Positions 13,805 to 20,085 of a stretch of 64,000 nt of DNA are shown piece by piece (positions within the stretch are counted from its first letter, which is position 1; each line of letters begins with the position of its first letter). This stretch comes from Porphyrobacter sp. IPPAS B-1204 (GTDB lineage Bacteria > Pseudomonadota > Alphaproteobacteria > Sphingomonadales > Sphingomonadaceae), in NCBI GenBank assembly GCA_003724185.1, contig RHGM01000003.1, positions 992,001-1,056,000 on the forward strand, read 5' to 3'. Under the pieces are notes generated by a model. It saw nothing but the letters and a program-made list of their open reading frames with translations. It was not told the origin of the DNA and searched no databases. A program made the translations under genes and the position numbers.

Positions 13805-14779
13805 ATGCTGCGCACCATCACCAACAATTTTGCTGCTTTGACCGTGGCGGGCGTGGCGGGCGCGTGGCTGTTCCCACCTGCCTTCACCTGGATGACCGAC
13901 GGCAGCATCCGCATTGCGGGCCAGCCGCTGCTGAGCATTGCGCTCGGAACCATCATGCTGGCGATGGGGCTGACTCTGCGGCTCGACGATTACCGCGGAC
14001 TTGCCGCCGCCCCGCGCGCGCTGATGGCAGGCGTAGCGCTGCAGTTTGCGGTGATGCCGCTGGCGGGATTTGCCATCGCGCGGGGGTTGGCGCTGGAGCC
14101 GGGGCTGGCGGTGGGCCTGATCCTTGTGGCCTGCTGTCCGGGGGGCACGGCATCGAACATCGTCGCCTATATCGCGCGGGGGAACGTGGCGCTGTCGGTG
14201 GCGATGACGATGGCATCGACGCTGGCCGCCGTGGTGCTGACCCCGCTGCTGACGGGGTGGCTGGCGGGGGCCTATGTCGAGATCGACCGCTGGAACCTGC
14301 TGGCCAACATGGTGAGCATCGTGCTGCTGCCGGTGGTGCTGGGAACGCTGCTCAACACCCTGTTCCCGCGCGCGGCCGAACGGGTGAACGCCGTGCTGCC
14401 GCTGGTCGCGATTGTGCTGGTGATTTTGATCGTCGGCGGGATCGTCGGCGGGGCCAAGACGCAGATCGCGCAGCACGCGGGCGTGCTGCTGCTGGCCACC
14501 TTCCTGCTCCACGCCTGCGGTTTCGGGCTGGGTTACGCTTTGGCGCGGCTTTTGAAGCTGGGCGAGGTGGAGGCGCGGACGATCTCTATCGAGGTGGGGA
14601 TGCAGAACTCCGGCCTTGGCTCAGGCCTCGCCAAGACGCCTGCGTTTGCCGCGCAATTCGCCGACATCACGCAAGCCGCGCTCGCCCCGGTGCCTGCCGC
14701 GATTTCGGCGGTGTGGCACGTGGTGATCGGCAGCCTGCTGGCGGGGTGGTGGCGCCAAAGAGACGGGGGGCGGGGTTAG
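13805..14779 (+). CDS. Bile acid:sodium symporter (BASS) family transporter
   Basis: A 324-residue polytopic inner-membrane protein with about nine to ten hydrophobic segments. The family pattern is clear in LLSIALGTIMLAMGLTLRLD (about 40-59), in GLILVACCPGGTASNIVAYI (about 102-121), which holds the CPGG(T)xSN sodium-site motif, and in EVGMQNSGLGSGLAK near residue 265. Substrates of BASS proteins vary (bile acids, pantoate, pyruvate and others) and cannot be read here. The upstream extension of the frame lacks protein-like sequence, so the ATG at 13805 is chosen. It is divergent from the DUF3857 gene and overlaps the end of the next gene by 4 nt, tail to tail. Confidence 0.87.
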   Translation: MLRTITNNFAALTVAGVAGAWLFPPAFTWMTDGSIRIAGQPLLSIALGTIMLAMGLTLRLDDYRGLAAAPRALMAGVALQFAVMPLAGFAIARGLALEPGLAVGLILVACCPGGTASNIVAYIARGNVALSVAMTMASTLAAVVLTPLLTGWLAGAYVEIDRWNLLANMVSIVLLPVVLGTLLNTLFPRAAERVNAVLPLVAIVLVILIVGGIVGGAKTQIAQHAGVLLLATFLLHACGFGLGYALARLLKLGEVEARTISIEVGMQNSGLGSGLAKTPAFAAQFADITQAALAPVPAAISAVWHVVIGSLLAGWWRQRDGGRG

Positions 14780-15204
14780 TCTTCGGGCTTCCAATCGAAG
14801 GGCGATTCGCATTCCGGCCATGAAAGCGGCGTCATCTCAATAAGCTCGGCGACCTCGTAGCGGGAGTTCCACCCGCCCAAATGCCCTGACACGCCGAAAT
14901 GGCGCTGGCCCTTGAAGCGCAGCGCGAAGGCCCGGACCTTGTAGCAATCGGCATACCCGCCATCGCGGGCAAACAGCTTTTCAACGTCGATCGCATCACC
15001 CTCTTCGAGCCAGCCTGCATCGGCCGGATCGAAGTCACGCACCGTCGCCAATGTCGCGCCTTCGAAGAATTGCGATCCCTCGAACTCCAGAAGCCAGACG
15101 CCGGAAAATTCCCTCGTCTGGTCAGTGGGCTTGGCCGCCCACACCGCCCCGCCAATCGCAAGCGCGATCAGTGCGATGACCGCCCAGCTGCGGGCCTGGC
15201 TCAC
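14776..15204 (-). CDS. Small single-pass or exported protein of unknown function
   Basis: A 142-residue protein that I do not recognise. It starts at a GTG inside the stop codon of the acyl-CoA dehydrogenase (GTGA), so it is the last gene of that unit. Residues 6-24 (SWAVIALIALAIGGAVWAAK) form a hydrophobic N-terminal helix, either an uncleaved anchor or a signal sequence. The rest is acidic, with Trp and Cys residues (VWLLEFEGSQFFEGATLATV, and a C-terminal WPECESPFDWKPED). A conserved-looking Cys pair may form a disulfide outside the cytoplasm. No function is proposed. Confidence 0.68.
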   Translation of the reverse strand: MSQARSWAVIALIALAIGGAVWAAKPTDQTREFSGVWLLEFEGSQFFEGATLATVRDFDPADAGWLEEGDAIDVEKLFARDGGYADCYKVRAFALRFKGQRHFGVSGHLGGWNSRYEVAELIEMTPLSWPECESPFDWKPED

Positions 15205-16487
15205 CCGTACATTCCCCGCTTCGGCCCGAGATAGCCGAACAGGTAGGCCCCCACCTTGCGCATCTGGATCTCCTCGCTGCCCTCGGTGATCCGATACCGG
15301 CGGTGGTGGCGGTAGATGTGTTCGAACGGCTTGTGGCGCGAATAGCCGATGCCGCCGTGGACCTGCATCGCCCGGTCCGCCGCTTCGCAGACCAGCCGGT
15401 TCGCCCAGTAATTGCACATCGAGACCTTGTCCGAGATCGTGCGTTCGATCTGTTCGTGGGGCATGTTGTCCATCTCCCACGCGGTCTTGAAGATCAGCAA
15501 CCGCAGCATTTCCGCCTGCGTCGCCAGCTCCACCAGCGGGAACTGGATGGCCTGGTTGCGGGCCAGCTCCTCGCCGAAGGGCTTGCGTTCCCGCGCGTAT
15601 TTCACGCTTTCATCGATGCAATAGAGCGCCGCGCCGCAGCTGCTCGCCGCCTGCCGGATGCGGTTCTGGTGGACGAAGCTTTGCGCCAGCGCGAGGCCGC
15701 GCCCCTCGACGCCGAGGATTGCGCTATCGGGCACCCAGACGTTGGTGACGCTGAGGCGCGGGTGGTCGGTGGGCATGTTGAAGGTCCACATCCACTCCTC
15801 GATTTTGAGGCCTTCGGTGGGGTTGGGGACGAGGAAACAGGTGATCCCGCTCGCCTCCCCCGCGCTTCCGCCCGTGCGCGCGAACATCGCGCAGTGGGTG
15901 GCGACGTGCATGCCGGTGATCCACATCTTTGCGCCATCGATCCGCCAGCCGTCCACCCCGTCGCGGGTCTCGCGCACCGCGACGGTTTCCATGTGGGTGG
16001 CGTCCGATCCGTGGTCGGGTTCGGTGAGGCCAAAGGCGACGCGCCGGGTGCGCTCGAACCCGCCGAGGATGAACTCCTGCTTCTGCTCCTCGGTGCCCCA
16101 CTGGTCGAACATGGCGACGAAGGGGAAGTTGCCGACGATGGAGTGTTCGTTCTGTAAGTCGTTGTGGAGCCCCAAGCCTTGGCGCGCAAAATGCTCGCGG
16201 ATCACCGCCATCCAGAGGTTGCTGCCGTCCTTGCCGCCGTAACGCTTGGGGGTGGAGAAGCGCCAATGGCCTGCCTTGTCGGCGCGGCGGGTGGCTTCCT
16301 TGAGCAGTTCCTCCCACTCGTGCCGGGGCAGGCCGCCCGCCTCGAAGTCCGTGCGCGCATATTCGCGGCGGTGGTCGAAGAAGCGGATGTTGTCGTCCTG
16401 TTGCTCCAGCGGCTTGATCTCGGCGGCGATGAAGGCGTCGAGCTCGTCGAGATAGGCCTGAAGGTCAGCGGGGATGGCGAAGTCCAT
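15201..16487 (-). CDS. Acyl-CoA dehydrogenase family flavoprotein
   Basis: A 428-residue FAD enzyme of the acyl-CoA dehydrogenase superfamily, predicted to oxidise an acyl-CoA at C2-C3. Visible signatures are AFGLTEPDHGSDATHMET (FAD/substrate region, about 152-169), DGWRIDGAKMWITG, and the C-terminal VCEAADRAMQVHGGIGYSRH and RHHRRYRITEGSEEIQ. It lies 3 nt after a kinase-like gene and overlaps the small protein downstream. ACAD-plus-kinase pairing resembles mammalian ACAD10/11, in which an aminoglycoside-kinase-like domain is fused to the dehydrogenase. The specific substrate is unknown; a 4-hydroxyacyl-CoA route is one inference. Confidence 0.92.
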   Translation of the reverse strand: MDFAIPADLQAYLDELDAFIAAEIKPLEQQDDNIRFFDHRREYARTDFEAGGLPRHEWEELLKEATRRADKAGHWRFSTPKRYGGKDGSNLWMAVIREHFARQGLGLHNDLQNEHSIVGNFPFVAMFDQWGTEEQKQEFILGGFERTRRVAFGLTEPDHGSDATHMETVAVRETRDGVDGWRIDGAKMWITGMHVATHCAMFARTGGSAGEASGITCFLVPNPTEGLKIEEWMWTFNMPTDHPRLSVTNVWVPDSAILGVEGRGLALAQSFVHQNRIRQAASSCGAALYCIDESVKYARERKPFGEELARNQAIQFPLVELATQAEMLRLLIFKTAWEMDNMPHEQIERTISDKVSMCNYWANRLVCEAADRAMQVHGGIGYSRHKPFEHIYRHHRRYRITEGSEEIQMRKVGAYLFGYLGPKRGMYG

Positions 16488-16490
16488 GGG

Positions 16491-17834
16491 TTATTCCTCT
16501 CCAGTCCATTTTGTGCGCGCATGCGCCAGCGCGGGGTATTTGGGCGAGTCCACAGTCACCTTTCTGAGCACGTCCTCGCGCAGTTCCTGGAGAAATTCGC
16601 GCCGATGGAGATTGAGCCGACCCGCAAGAATTGCCGGGATTTGCTCTCTGTCTGGCCGCAGGGGGATATGCTCATCTTCGCGCATGATGATACCCAGCGC
16701 GTTTCTGGCGACCGCGTATTGAAACCGATCATGTCCGCTGAATTGATCTTTCACCGAAGCAAGCCACTCGGAAACAGCCAAAGCCAACTCGGATAGCTCC
16801 GCTTCGCCATTTTTGCGGAGATAGGGCGCGTGATCAATGACTTCTCGATCCCGCTCCGCCTTTGGTGCATCCTCCTCCAGCAGCAACAGCAGGTCCAATT
16901 CCTGCTCGCTCGTCCGGCGCGAGATCACCACGCGTTCGAGCATCCGGTCCGCGCCCGAGCGCCATTGCGCCGCCATCTTGAGGCAGCCGAGCGCCCACCA
17001 CACCGTCCGATAAATCGTCCAGAAGCGGAAGCGCGCAGGGTCGAGGCGCACCCCCGCCTCGGCCTCATAGGCGGCGATGTAATCCGCGATGCTCCCCAGC
17101 CCCAGCGCAGGCCGGTCGTAGCGGGCGAAGCGCCATACGGCCATGCAGCCGAAGGCCAAGTCCTCGTGGGGGTCACCGAAATGGGCGATTTCCCAGTCGA
17201 GCACGCCGGTCAGGGTCGATCCCTCCACCAGCAGATTGCCCATGCGGTAATCGCCGTGGTTGAGGACGGGCTCGACCTCTGGCGGGCAATTGTCCTCCAG
17301 CCACTTCAGCCCCAGCGCAATGATCGGACGGTCACCGCCCGCTTCCATGAACTGCGCCTTGAGGTCGGCAATCGCGGTGCGGTAGTCCATCACCGGCACG
17401 CCCTCGGGCACATCGCCCTGCCGCAAGCGATGGATGCGCGCCAGATCGCGGGCGGCCTGCCGCAGCAACCCCGCCGGATCGTCGCACGCCAGAATGACCT
17501 TGGGATCAGCCGTCCCCGGCAGGGCGCGCATCACGAAGCCTGAGCCAAGCCCGTCCGCCTCTTCCAGAACAGCGACCACCTCCGGCGCGGTCACGCCCTT
17601 GGCGCGGGCCGCTTCGATCAGCGCAGCCTCGGTCGCGTGCCCATAAGGTCGCCCCTCCATGAAGGCGAGGCTGGGTGCGCGGCGCAGGACGAAACCGGCA
17701 TCCCCGCACACAAAGCGCCAGCTTTCCATCACCGCCCCGCCGGTGAGCCGCTGGGGATCGCCCGACAACACGCCAAGGCCGGCGCGGTCGGAGACCCTCG
17801 CCAGCCCTGCCTGCAACCTGTCCGGATCGATCAC
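16491..17834 (-). CDS. Aminoglycoside-phosphotransferase-like kinase with extra C-terminal domain
   Basis: A 447-residue protein. The N-terminal part (about 1-330) is a phosphotransferase (APH/ACAD11-N type) with the catalytic loop LNHGDYRMGNLL (about 204-215, Asp in HGD and the metal Asn) and LDWEIAHFGDPHEDLAF, equivalent to the DFG/DWE segment. The remaining 110 or so residues are helical and resemble DUF6285, found fused to such kinases. It starts within the M48 protease stop (ATGA) and ends 3 nt before the acyl-CoA dehydrogenase. Antibiotic resistance is unlikely given the context; phosphorylation of a hydroxyacyl-CoA, as for LvaA and ACAD11, is a reasonable inference. Confidence 0.84.
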   Translation of the reverse strand: MIDPDRLQAGLARVSDRAGLGVLSGDPQRLTGGAVMESWRFVCGDAGFVLRRAPSLAFMEGRPYGHATEAALIEAARAKGVTAPEVVAVLEEADGLGSGFVMRALPGTADPKVILACDDPAGLLRQAARDLARIHRLRQGDVPEGVPVMDYRTAIADLKAQFMEAGGDRPIIALGLKWLEDNCPPEVEPVLNHGDYRMGNLLVEGSTLTGVLDWEIAHFGDPHEDLAFGCMAVWRFARYDRPALGLGSIADYIAAYEAEAGVRLDPARFRFWTIYRTVWWALGCLKMAAQWRSGADRMLERVVISRRTSEQELDLLLLLEEDAPKAERDREVIDHAPYLRKNGEAELSELALAVSEWLASVKDQFSGHDRFQYAVARNALGIIMREDEHIPLRPDREQIPAILAGRLNLHRREFLQELREDVLRKVTVDSPKYPALAHARTKWTGEE

Positions 17835-18610
17835 TTGATCTGCTTGCGCATCCGCTTGGCGCGTGCGGCGGGGTTGGGGTGGGTTTGCAGCAGGGCAATC
17901 CCGCCGCCCCCGCCCAGCGCCGCCAGCTTGTCCATCGCGGTGGCGCAGGCTTCACGGTTGTAGCCCCGCGCCGCCATGAACTGCAGCGCGTAGTCATCGG
18001 ACTGCGTTTCGGCCGCCTGCGAATGCTGCGCATACATCACGTTCTGCACCAGCCCGCCCAGTTCGGAATTCGCAAGCTGCCGCACGCCGCCGCTGGCGGT
18101 TCCGGCAACGCTGAGCGCAGCATCCTGCTGGAGCGCGCGGCGCAGCCGCTTGTGCCCGTGCTCCAGCTTCACATGACCGATTTCGTGGCCGATCACGCAG
18201 CGCACCTCATCGTCATTCATTTTGTCCATCAGCCCGGAATAGACCCGCACCGTGCCATCGCCCATCGCAAAGGCGTTCACCTCATTGACCAGATAGGCTT
18301 TGATATCGAGGTTGAGCCCGTCATAGCTGTCCAGCCCCTGCGTCAGCTTGGCCAGCCGCACCGCATAGGGGTTCTTGGCCGGGGCGAGAGGGTTCTGGCG
18401 GTCCATCTCGTCCGACATCTGCCCGAAATAGGCAACGATCTGCTCGTCCGAGACGGTGGCAGCCTGCACGATCTTCTTGCCCGCCCCCATGATGTCGCCC
18501 AGGCTTTGTGAATGGGCCGGAGCGGCGGGTGCAAGCAGTGTTGCACCCGCAAGTCCGGCAGCGGCGAGCATCGGCGAAAGCACGGCCAAAAGCTTGATCG
18601 AATTGCGCAT
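17831..18610 (-). CDS. M48-family metalloprotease, exported
   Basis: A 259-residue zinc endopeptidase with a hydrophobic signal sequence (residues 6-34, ending near PAHSQS). The zinc site HEIGH lies in VRCVIGHEIGHVKLEHGHKR (about 141-160), and the third ligand Glu is probably in QAAETQSDDYALQFMAARGY (about 199-218). This is the core of an M48 (Ste24/HtpX/BepA-like) protease without TPR repeats. The ATG at 18610 is supported by GAGGG 6 nt upstream. The gene lies 47 nt after the aldehyde dehydrogenase stop and overlaps the kinase start, so it may be in one transcription unit with both. Periplasmic quality control is the likely role. Confidence 0.9.
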   Translation of the reverse strand: MRNSIKLLAVLSPMLAAAGLAGATLLAPAAPAHSQSLGDIMGAGKKIVQAATVSDEQIVAYFGQMSDEMDRQNPLAPAKNPYAVRLAKLTQGLDSYDGLNLDIKAYLVNEVNAFAMGDGTVRVYSGLMDKMNDDEVRCVIGHEIGHVKLEHGHKRLRRALQQDAALSVAGTASGGVRQLANSELGGLVQNVMYAQHSQAAETQSDDYALQFMAARGYNREACATAMDKLAALGGGGGIALLQTHPNPAARAKRMRKQIK

Positions 18611-18657
18611 AATCATCCCTCCCTCTGGCCGCACGATGCTCGCCAACCGCATGATTA

Positions 18658-20085
18658 TCAAGCCGGAACGTTGTCCTTCTTGACGGTGATCACCTGCGCA
18701 TAGGTGAACTCCTTGAGGCCTTCCTTGCCATATTCGGCGCCAAAGCCCGACTGCTTGTGCCCGCCAAACGGTGCAAACGGGGACAGGTGGAGGTATTCAT
18801 TGACCCACACCGTGCCGGTTTCGAGCTGCTCGGCGATTTCGACACCCTTTTCCGGGTTGCCGGTCCACACCGCACCCGCAAGGCCATATTCGCTGGCGTT
18901 GGCACGGGCGATGACCTCTTCCTCGGTCGAGAACTTCATCAGCGGCATCACCGGGCCGAACTGTTCCTCGGCCACGATCCGCGCATCTTCGGGCGGATTG
19001 TCGATGATGGTCAGCGGGACGAAGTAGCCGGTGCCGCTCGGATCGACATTGCCGCCGAGCAGGAACTTGTAGCCATTGTCCTTGGCGTCCTCGATCAGTT
19101 CGAGCACGCGCTCGTACTGCTTCTTGTTCTGGATCGGGCCGACGCCGGTGCCCTGCTGCGCGCCGTCTCCCACGGTGACGGTCTTGGCATATTCGACGAT
19201 CGCGGCGCTCAATTCGTCATAGATATCCTCGTGGATGTAGACGCGCTTGGCCGCGACGCAGATCTGCCCGGCGTTGGAGAAGCTCGACCAGAACAGCTGT
19301 TCGGCGACCTTCTTGGGGTCCGCATCGGGCAGCACGATCGAGGCATCATTGCCGCCCAGTTCCAGCGTGATGCGCTTGAGGTCAGCCGATGCGCCTTCCA
19401 TGATCTTCTTGCCGGTCGCGGTCGATCCGGTGAAGGTGATCTTGTCGATATCGGGGTGGCTGGTGATCATCGGGCCAAGGTCATCCTCACCGGTGATGAT
19501 GTTGACCACGCCCGGGGGAACCACGCCCGCGATCAACTCTGCGATGCGCAGCGTGGTGAGCGGGGTGAAGGGCGAGGGCTTCAATACGATGGTGCAACCC
19601 GAAAGCATGGCGGGGACGATCTTCTGGATCGCCATCATCACCGGGAAGTTCCACGGCACGATGCCGCCGACCACGCCCACAGGCACGCGGCGGGTGCGCG
19701 ACAGGCGCGTGTCGCTGTCCTCGTTGATCTCGTCATCGAGGCTGAGGGTGGACTGCGCCGCGCTCATGCCGGCTGCTCCGTAGATTTCGCCCTTGGCCTG
19801 ATCGTGCGGCTTGCCCTGTTCGCTGGTCAGCAGGCGATAGAGTTCCTCGGCATTGGCCTTGATCGCGCCGGAAATCGCCATGATCGCGGCGCGGCGTTCT
19901 TCGATGGGGGTGTTCTTCCACGTCTTGAACGCGGTGCGTGCAGCGGCAACGGCGCGGTCAAGCTCGGCCTTGCCGCAAGCAGGCACCTGGCCGATGACCT
20001 GTTCGGTCGCCGGGTTCACGACATCGAGCCAGCGGTCGGTCGCGATCATCTCGCCGCCGATAAGATTCTTGTACTGGGTGACCAT
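18658..20085 (-). CDS. NAD(P)-dependent aldehyde dehydrogenase
   Basis: A 475-residue soluble member of the aldehyde dehydrogenase superfamily. The catalytic Cys lies in FSNAGQICVAAKRVYIHEDI (about 280-299), the general-base Glu in ITLELGGNDASIV (about 249-261), the cofactor-site Asn in VPWNFPVMMAIQK, and a TFTGSTATGK nucleotide motif is present. GAGAGG precedes the ATG. Substrate cannot be assigned from sequence alone. It is the first gene of a possible leftward unit (ALDH, M48 protease, kinase, acyl-CoA dehydrogenase, small protein), which hints at aldehyde/acyl catabolism. Confidence 0.93.
   Translation of the reverse strand: MVTQYKNLIGGEMIATDRWLDVVNPATEQVIGQVPACGKAELDRAVAAARTAFKTWKNTPIEERRAAIMAISGAIKANAEELYRLLTSEQGKPHDQAKGEIYGAAGMSAAQSTLSLDDEINEDSDTRLSRTRRVPVGVVGGIVPWNFPVMMAIQKIVPAMLSGCTIVLKPSPFTPLTTLRIAELIAGVVPPGVVNIITGEDDLGPMITSHPDIDKITFTGSTATGKKIMEGASADLKRITLELGGNDASIVLPDADPKKVAEQLFWSSFSNAGQICVAAKRVYIHEDIYDELSAAIVEYAKTVTVGDGAQQGTGVGPIQNKKQYERVLELIEDAKDNGYKFLLGGNVDPSGTGYFVPLTIIDNPPEDARIVAEEQFGPVMPLMKFSTEEEVIARANASEYGLAGAVWTGNPEKGVEIAEQLETGTVWVNEYLHLSPFAPFGGHKQSGFGAEYGKEGLKEFTYAQVITVKKDNVPA

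Follow-up and report, generated by a model that had tools for sequence, protein, structure and literature searches.

In the window, i. e., the whole analysed stretch of 64,000 nucleotides from Porphyrobacter sp. IPPAS B-1204, a gene for an APH-type kinase directly precedes one for an acyl-CoA dehydrogenase (ACAD), which raises the question of whether both proteins act as a couple and, if so, on which kind of substrate. The principle of combining a kinase with an ACAD for 4-hydroxy acids has reportedly been worked out with one type of ACAD, represented by LvaC, ACAD10, and ACAD11. No paper containing the word DUF6285 (the domain fused to the kinase, see below) and none on the present pair was found in our literature search.

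Layout of the locus

The locus comprises the following features:

14776..15204, minus strand: small ORF whose product has a hydrophobic segment at the N-terminus, no family assigned (ORF list, Pfam)
15201..16487, minus strand: acyl-CoA dehydrogenase, here named ACADw (Pfam domains, residue table, identities)
16491..16859, minus strand: DUF6285/LvaB-like domain of the kinase, residues 326–447, stop codon included (hhalign; Pfam PF19802, 33 bits)
16860..17834, minus strand: APH-type kinase domain, residues 1–325 (Pfam APH, 1.2e-24; model; HGD 193–195, DWE 213–215)
17831..18661, minus strand: M48 (LoiP-like) peptidase gene, separating the kinase from the aldehyde dehydrogenase (Pfam)
18658..20085, minus strand: aldehyde dehydrogenase (Pfam; a neighbour in close relatives only)

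The kinase ORF (16491–17834, GTG start, 447 aa) lies 5' of the ACAD ORF (15201–16487, ATG start, 428 aa), and the kinase TAA is followed by three nucleotides (ccc) and the ATG of the ACAD, just as the first-pass annotation had described. The sequence GGAGAGG sits within the 3' end of the kinase gene, ahead of the ACAD start. On either side, the gene row continues with overlaps, as the M48 peptidase gene overlaps the kinase start by 4 nt (GTGA) and the small ORF begins with a GTGA overlapping the ACAD stop, while an SBF-family transporter gene (Pfam, window) is found nearby on the opposite strand. A promoter and terminator scan returned no promoter and one terminator, the shuffle means of 1.1 and 5.0, respectively, both being higher than the observed values.

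Coupling of kinase and dehydrogenase across genomes

In 72 of 80 named relatives, the gene immediately upstream of ACADw is the kinase gene, with a distance between match ends of 2–8 nt in 55 of these 72 loci (kinase stop codon counted in). Among 119 genomes of the family, 42 carry both genes, four only the kinase, three only ACADw, and 70 neither (phi 0.876, Fisher 7e-24), where the counts depend on the thresholds for both proteins (E <= 1e-30 for the kinase, E <= 1e-120 for ACADw), kinship is ignored, and the kinase threshold also admits kinases of 31–40 % identity, for example, near sdh-like genes. The coupling is thus far above chance, and the co-occurrence analysis proposed along with the first-pass annotation bears out its view of kinase and ACAD as a couple. 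For the kinase and ACAD10/11, phi amounts to 0.37 in the same 119 genomes; 44 of the 46 kinase-bearing family genomes also encode ACAD10/11.

The two genes are unlinked in 13 of the 42 family genomes with both and ACADw is unlinked in 9 of 22 ACADw genomes outside the family, a lack of adjacency that in itself speaks against the proposed couple. It could be imagined that kinase and ACADw are functionally unrelated and simply share a transcript, as might be suggested by the M48 peptidase gene and the unconserved small ORF in the same gene row. However, this is very improbable because the co-occurrence persists when the genes are far apart, so that a shared transcript alone is disfavoured.

Of 379 genomes sampled from the phylum outside the family, 22 carry ACADw, and every one of these also contains DUF6285, as compared to 10 of the 357 others. 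The kinase stays beside DUF6285 in all nine genomes with unlinked ACADw; eight of these kinases are best matched by a window-type kinase query, and the tree places the ninth (L180) with this type. Seven of the ten DUF6285-only genomes were examined, and here the kinase is best matched by LvaA in all seven, with LvaC adjoining in five. Kinase type and ACAD type switch together, which suggests a different substrate.

The kinase and its DUF6285 domain

Both motifs named in the first-pass annotation could be placed on the kinase, namely HGDYRMGN at residues 193–200 and DWE at residues 213–215, and with them the catalytic Asp and Asn of the HxDxRxxN stretch that, together with DWE, mark the kinase of an LvaA–LvaB module; the Pfam APH score is 87.9 bits (cut-off 23.2). 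The DUF6285-like C-terminus, likewise noted before, is a marginal case in Pfam: the score of 33.0 bits exceeds the cut-off of 28.1, but the best stretch spans residues 401–433 only, no single stretch passes the cut-off by itself, and a run of the DUF6285 model over the whole genome did not report the kinase C-terminus. Since a profile comparison with 14 free-standing DUF6285-type proteins, some of them from lva-type operons, settles the matter (hhalign probability 99.7, E 8e-26), the assignment was accepted. Judged by these profiles, the C-terminus is a fused DUF6285 domain, a family that occupies the lvaB position of the lva-type operon, as seen in Stutzerimonas. Fusions to DUF6285 also occur in LvaA-type kinases.

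In the kinase tree, which has a single distant outgroup, the window kinase falls with LvaA and Thermus kinases (support 0.78) and the ACAD10/11-type kinases fall outside, lending modest support to a place among LvaA-type kinases. It is 32 % identical to the kinase of the Stutzerimonas lva-type operon and 22 % to the genome's own ACAD10/11-type kinase, and it matches ACAD11 with an E value of 8e-4, as compared to 3e-72 for the latter kinase.

The model of the kinase domain (pLDDT 89.8, pTM 0.90) has two tied top structural matches, 3dxp (Z 25.3) and 25-hydroxysteroid kinase from Sterolibacterium denitrificans (Z 25.2, rmsd 3.2, 306 aligned residues); ACAD11 was absent among the Foldseek/VIA matches shown, which says nothing about the ACAD11 fold. 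The second match, an APH-like kinase of close fold, phosphorylates an alcohol so that the phosphate can be eliminated; according to the available part of the source, it acts on the free steroid and its lyase has not been identified (PMC8449060). By analogy, the window kinase might phosphorylate a tertiary or isoprenoid alcohol to drive dehydration, with ACADw serving in the later degradation of branched acids, and CaiB/BaiF-like ORFs (assigned by eye) near three loci (L089, L165, and L284) would fit. We nevertheless regard this scenario as a long shot: the identity to 25-hydroxysteroid kinase is only 21 %, no steroid gene cluster was noticed in the locus maps (which were not searched for one specifically), and the DUF6285 partner kept in all nine unlinked genomes has no counterpart mentioned for 25-hydroxysteroid kinase in the available part of PMC8449060.

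Active site and lineage of ACADw

ACADw carries the Acyl-CoA_dh N, M, and C domains (Pfam). According to the available part of PMC12440821, R626, H634, and R637 of ACAD11 bind the 4-phospho group and D753 is the catalytic base. With the numbering checked against the solved ACAD11 sequence, F271, R276, Q279, S282, and E402 of ACADw align with R626, R631, H634, R637, and D753. Across 51 ACADw sequences, the three phosphate-binding places hold F/Q/S (49) or F/Q/G (2) and the position of the base is invariably Glu (Glu402 in the window), the table being restricted to tblastn matches with E no higher than 1e-100 that cover more than about 380 query residues; by comparison, R/H/R is present in seven of seven LvaC or ACAD10/11 proteins and five further LvaC, and the Asp base in all of the former seven. 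Applied to the ACAD paralogues of the window genome, a corresponding comparison was only partly usable, as several frames of the 23 ACAD places were omitted or misread.

The same genome moreover encodes an ACAD10/11-type ACAD with its kinase about 300 kb away (G000:C8:698053-701594). The first-pass view of the pair as "separate ACAD10/11 parts" is therefore rejected, and since the signature residues are absent and such a pair resides elsewhere in the genome, a second kinase–DUF6285–ACAD couple is the more fitting description. What the window shares with mammalian ACAD10/ACAD11 is the coupling of a kinase to an ACAD, whereas the kinase match is weak and the clamp and Asp base are missing; the window kinase carries the fused DUF6285 domain. 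The levulinate (lva) operon of Pseudomonas likewise unites an APH-type kinase, a DUF6285 partner, and an ACAD in one gene row (LvaA–LvaB/LvaC). However, kinase and DUF6285 are one polypeptide in the window, ACADw is only 30 % identical to an LvaC (28 % to the genome's own ACAD10/11-type protein) with none of the four signature residues, and instead of a CoA ligase, SDR, or acetate symporter, the neighbours are an aldehyde dehydrogenase, an M48 peptidase, and an SBF-family transporter.

The earlier proposal that the pair performs the LvaA/LvaC reaction, i. e., phosphorylation of 4-hydroxyacyl-CoA at C4 and elimination to 2-enoyl-CoA with ACADw in the role of LvaC, accordingly appears improbable. 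The grouping of the kinase with LvaA and its LvaB-like domain are in its favour, as are possible lactone-cleaving neighbours, namely an SGL-family protein in L090 and, in L077, an ORF separating kinase and ACADw that was judged by eye to be dienelactone-hydrolase-like, but the loss of all four residues, the ACAD10/11-type pair already held by the genome, and the joint switch of kinase and ACAD types, suggestive of a different substrate, argue against it.

With its Glu base before an EG turn and its three domains, ACADw looks like a conventional acyl-CoA dehydrogenase, and in sequence and model it is closest to ordinary ones (best PDB matches). A less likely alternative is that ACADw is an ordinary FAD/ETF-linked enzyme whose substrate, an unphosphorylated acyl-CoA, belongs to the same pathway and is oxidised either before or after the kinase acts, and that a different enzyme, perhaps the ACAD10/11-type protein, takes off the phosphate. 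Besides the Glu base, the missing clamp, and the PDB matches, this would agree with three loci: in L091, ACADw adjoins an ACAD10/11-type ACAD, and in L162 and L164 such a gene lies no more than about 6.5 kb from it. On the other hand, ACAD10/11 follows the kinase far more weakly than ACADw does and has its own kinase in the window genome, and ACADw is accompanied by DUF6285 in all 22 ACADw genomes of the sample outside the family. While fold, domain set, and base are those of SCAD/MCAD-type dehydrogenases, ACADw differs from them as a compact family with conserved stretches, (F)VHxNRIRQAASS-like and RHHRRYRITEG (the latter in 19 of 19 aligned ACADw), and a near-obligate DUF6285 partnership. 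Its relatives (57–98 % identity) are found in Alphaproteobacteria, one other class of the phylum, Nocardia, and haloarchaea; the relation of the ACADw clade to the LvaC/ACAD10-11 clade has a tree support of 0.255.

Neighbouring genes

The aldehyde dehydrogenase, which the first-pass annotation had placed upstream as fitting the route, is indeed present there and in 40 of 80 named loci, exclusively those of close relatives (<=120 nt from the kinase in 24 of the 40), but in the window an M48 peptidase gene separates it from the kinase; four more matches of 33 % identity represent another gene. It was kept merely as a neighbour. For the M48 peptidase gene, 9 of 80 relatives have a match that separates the aldehyde dehydrogenase from the kinase, and in five of them it immediately precedes the kinase; the gene is probably an inserted passenger. 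The small ORF was matched in two of 80 (34 % and 28 % identity), and both it and the peptidase gene were rejected as core parts.

In Sulfitobacter, kinase, DUF6285, and ACADw are encoded unfused in this order along with a CoA ligase, enoyl-CoA hydratases, and a thiolase, and other Alphaproteobacteria show the same unfused order with β-oxidation neighbours. In haloarchaea, the ACAD adjoins a phosphotransferase-family kinase whose tree position has a support of 0.0, and the 159-aa protein encoded where LvaB would be expected shows no detectable similarity to LvaB (probability 5 %).

A proposed second kinase–dehydrogenase couple

We regard it as the most likely reading, with a rough probability of 0.45, that the pair constitutes a second kinase–ACAD couple of hydroxyacyl-CoA catabolism, parallel to LvaA–LvaB/LvaC and ACAD10/11 and with a different ACAD lineage. 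This builds on the architecture with its fused DUF6285 domain, the adjacency and near-obligate co-occurrence, the active-site residues, and the β-oxidation neighbours in other species. Together with the LvaB-like domain fused to it, the kinase would transfer phosphate from ATP to a hydroxyl group of a hydroxyacyl-CoA, a substrate we infer by analogy with LvaA, and ACADw would convert the phosphoacyl-CoA into an enoyl-CoA for β-oxidation, Glu402 serving as the base and the anion site differing from the R/H/R clamp of ACAD11; the order of both steps, the loss of phosphate in ACADw, and the hydroxyl position are equally inferred. Phosphoacyl-CoA processing by ACADw is not predicted from homology, because the residues holding the 4-phospho group in ACAD11 are missing in all 51 sequences, and the kinase product could in principle also pass to ACAD10/11, given its presence in nearly all kinase-bearing family genomes. 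Candidate residues for the anion site of ACADw are R278, Q279, the H394-H395-R396-R397 stretch, and H273 (not invariant).

Significance

As a tentative extension, ACADw may represent a second ACAD lineage acting on phosphorylated acyl-CoA, with base (Glu402) and anion site unlike those of ACAD10/11 and LvaC, and might form with the kinase–LvaB fusion an unrecognised ATP-dependent route for a hydroxyacyl-CoA that is out of reach of the ACAD10/11 route. Given the haloarchaeal ACAD beside a phosphotransferase-family kinase, this route may reach into the archaea. In any case, a different ACAD family, spread over several phyla, pairs with the same type of kinase and helper in nearly every ACADw-bearing proteobacterial genome examined, and some genomes, including that of the window, thus hold two parallel kinase–ACAD couples, while the kinase–DUF6285 fusion offers a single-chain protein for studying the role of LvaB.

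Gene arrangement in the window

The APH-type kinase and the acyl-CoA dehydrogenase (ACAD; ACADw denotes that of the window and its relatives) lie in a five-gene row:

18658-20085, minus strand: aldehyde dehydrogenase, first in the row
17831-18661, minus strand: M48 peptidase, second, following the aldehyde dehydrogenase and preceding the kinase; hydrophobic stretch at its N-terminus
16491-17834, minus strand: kinase, third, after the peptidase
15201-16487, minus strand: ACADw, fourth, after the kinase
14776-15204, minus strand: small ORF, last, after ACADw

The peptidase and kinase genes overlap by GTGA, and the ACAD stop overlaps the start of the small ORF. The kinase stop is separated from the ACAD ATG, with GGAGAGG just 5' of it, by the 3 nt that the first-pass annotation had given. 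In the closest named relatives of the window the ACAD is 97-98% identical, which assigns the window to an Erythrobacter/Porphyrobacter-like genome. Of 80 relatives, 9 likewise have an M48 peptidase separating the aldehyde dehydrogenase from the kinase.

The kinase and its fused domain

The kinase belongs to the APH family, has the catalytic motifs and is predicted with confidence (pLDDT 89.8, pTM 0.90). In a structural search its top matches were tied, namely 3dxp (Z 25.3, rmsd 3.6, 305 aligned), a 25-hydroxysteroid kinase (Z 25.2, rmsd 3.2, 306 aligned) and Rv3168 (Z 24.8, rmsd 3.4, 301 aligned). Its C-terminal part, residues 326-447, is homologous to DUF6285-type proteins that stand alone (probability 99.7, E 8e-26). 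In the kinase tree, the window's group of fused kinases forms one clade (support 1.0); the kinase of locus L089 is also long (468 aa), yet falls outside it. The tree places the window kinase closer to Thermus kinases and LvaA, the kinase of the Pseudomonas levulinate (lva) operon, than to ACAD10/11-type kinases, though support is modest and the only outgroup is distant. DUF6285 fusions also occur among LvaA-type kinases (L289 6866-8326, L292 7493-8872), apparently independently of that in the window's family.

In Stutzerimonas stutzeri S116, the row of regulator, kinase, DUF6285, histidine phosphatase, ACAD, SDR, CoA ligase, DUF485 protein and acetate symporter matches the gene order that PMC6692424 reports for Pseudomonas lva. 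By this order, rather than by the P. putida LvaB sequence, DUF6285 takes the lvaB position; the same paper describes LvaB as a 12-kDa protein that binds LvaA. On a Thermus thermophilus plasmid (L185 7781-10908), an ACAD of LvaC type by its signature residues (LvaC being the lva ACAD), a kinase, DUF6285 and a histidine phosphatase also form one row. Among the papers searched, none contains the word DUF6285 and none of those listed deals with this kinase-ACADw pair; PMC11342911, PMC11061730 and PMC8449060 served as further background.

The active site of ACADw

As described in PMC12440821, ACAD11 holds the 4-phospho group by R626, H634 and R637 and uses D753 as catalytic base, a cluster common to ACAD10/11 and LvaC and absent from conventional ACADs. 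Numbering was verified on the 8v3u/8v3v sequences (chain offset by one). Aligned with 7 proteins of LvaC or ACAD10/11 type, every one of 51 ACADw shows Phe and Gln, then Ser (49) or Gly (2), and lastly Glu at these places; all 7 others, as well as five further LvaC proteins, have Arg, His, Arg and Asp. In the runner-up explanation, ACADw would be a plain dehydrogenase acting within the same pathway as the kinase.

The organism also encodes an ACAD10/11-type pair, some 300 kb from that of the window:

L005 6054-9595 (own genome, C8:698053-701594): ACAD10/11-type ACAD and kinase, by similarity to ACAD11 (E 6e-138 and 3e-72, respectively)

An alcohol-dehydrogenase-like ORF, assigned by eye, sits between the two.

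Coupling of kinase and ACADw

The kinase and ACADw are partners. The kinase immediately precedes the ACAD in 72 of 80 named loci, which are not independent (ACAD 83-98% identical; >1.5 kb upstream in 77); any kinase match is found in 74, two of which (L256, L276) are not adjacent in the same way. The co-occurrence analysis proposed in the first-pass annotation supports the pairing: of the 119 genomes from the family (thresholds E <= 1e-30 for the kinase and E <= 1e-120 for ACADw), 42 have both and 70 neither, four the kinase only (G011, G027, G063, G097) and three ACADw only (G030, G088, G113). In 13 of the 42, the genes are >3 kb apart or on separate contigs. For kinase versus ACAD10/11, phi is 0.37 across the 119.

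The phylum sample comprised 398 genomes for each of the ACADw and DUF6285 searches, assumed to be the same draw. The window's family (19 genomes, assigned by reading lists; 8 with ACADw, 6 of these with a DUF6285 match) was left out because some fused domains, the window's own among them, escape the DUF6285 model. Among the remaining 379, DUF6285 occurs in 22/22 ACADw genomes and 10/357 others. In nine of the 22 it lies far from ACADw; in all nine a kinase lies 4-19 nt from DUF6285 (between match ends), the window type being the best match in eight and the ninth (L180) joining that type in the tree. For the 13 linked genomes, the kinase belongs to the window-type cluster in all seven loci examined, and in the other six DUF6285 and ACADw lie within ~2.5 kb. 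Seven of the ten DUF6285-only genomes were examined: LvaA is the best match to the kinase in all seven, and an LvaC-type ACAD adjoins it in five. In the genomes examined, the window-type kinase thus goes with ACADw and the LvaA-matched kinase mostly with LvaC, so that kinase and ACAD types switch jointly.

Genomic context and proposed function

Sulfitobacter pontiacus has a row of TetR regulator, CoA ligase, kinase, DUF6285, ACADw, two enoyl-CoA hydratases and thiolase. Other alphaproteobacterial loci (L086, L161-L165) hold varying combinations of enoyl-CoA hydratase, kinase, DUF6285, ACADw, CoA ligase, SDR and thiolase; these labels come from clustering and from inspection by eye, with Pfam identifying one thiolase and DUF6285. 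In L077 an ORF that looks dienelactone-hydrolase-like by eye separates kinase from ACADw, and L090, which the L091 row resembles, combines SGL-family and cyclase-family proteins with window-type kinase, DUF6285, ACAD10/11-type kinase and ACADw. These neighbours are compatible with hydroxy acids or lactones feeding beta-oxidation and single out no one substrate. Two observations count against this: most members of the window's own family have the pair amid genes with no evident tie to beta-oxidation, and recG- or mfd-like genes (by eye) are found close to several of the unlinked kinase-DUF6285 pairs.

Such recG-/mfd-like neighbours (by eye) accompany window-type kinase and DUF6285 in L278, L279, L280, L282 and L179, with ACADw elsewhere in the genome. 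Kinases of the same broad group lie near succinate dehydrogenase subunit-like genes (by eye) in L095, L096, L097, L098 and L099; some of these kinases are accompanied by DUF6285 and by a DUF1330-like gene that falls just below the Pfam cut-off. Haloarchaeal ACADw also occur with a phosphotransferase-family kinase (L183 9001-11830, L184 7343-10233); the 159-aa protein at the LvaB place there had no similarity to LvaB when compared.

In the reading we favour, the kinase and the LvaB-like domain built into it generate a phosphoacyl-CoA that ACADw then handles through a different active site, substrate and chemistry both being putative. In a bolder and somewhat less likely version, ACADw would represent a second ACAD lineage acting on phosphorylated acyl-CoA, in which, we infer, Glu402 may take the C2 proton while the C3 phosphate leaves, with no redox step.
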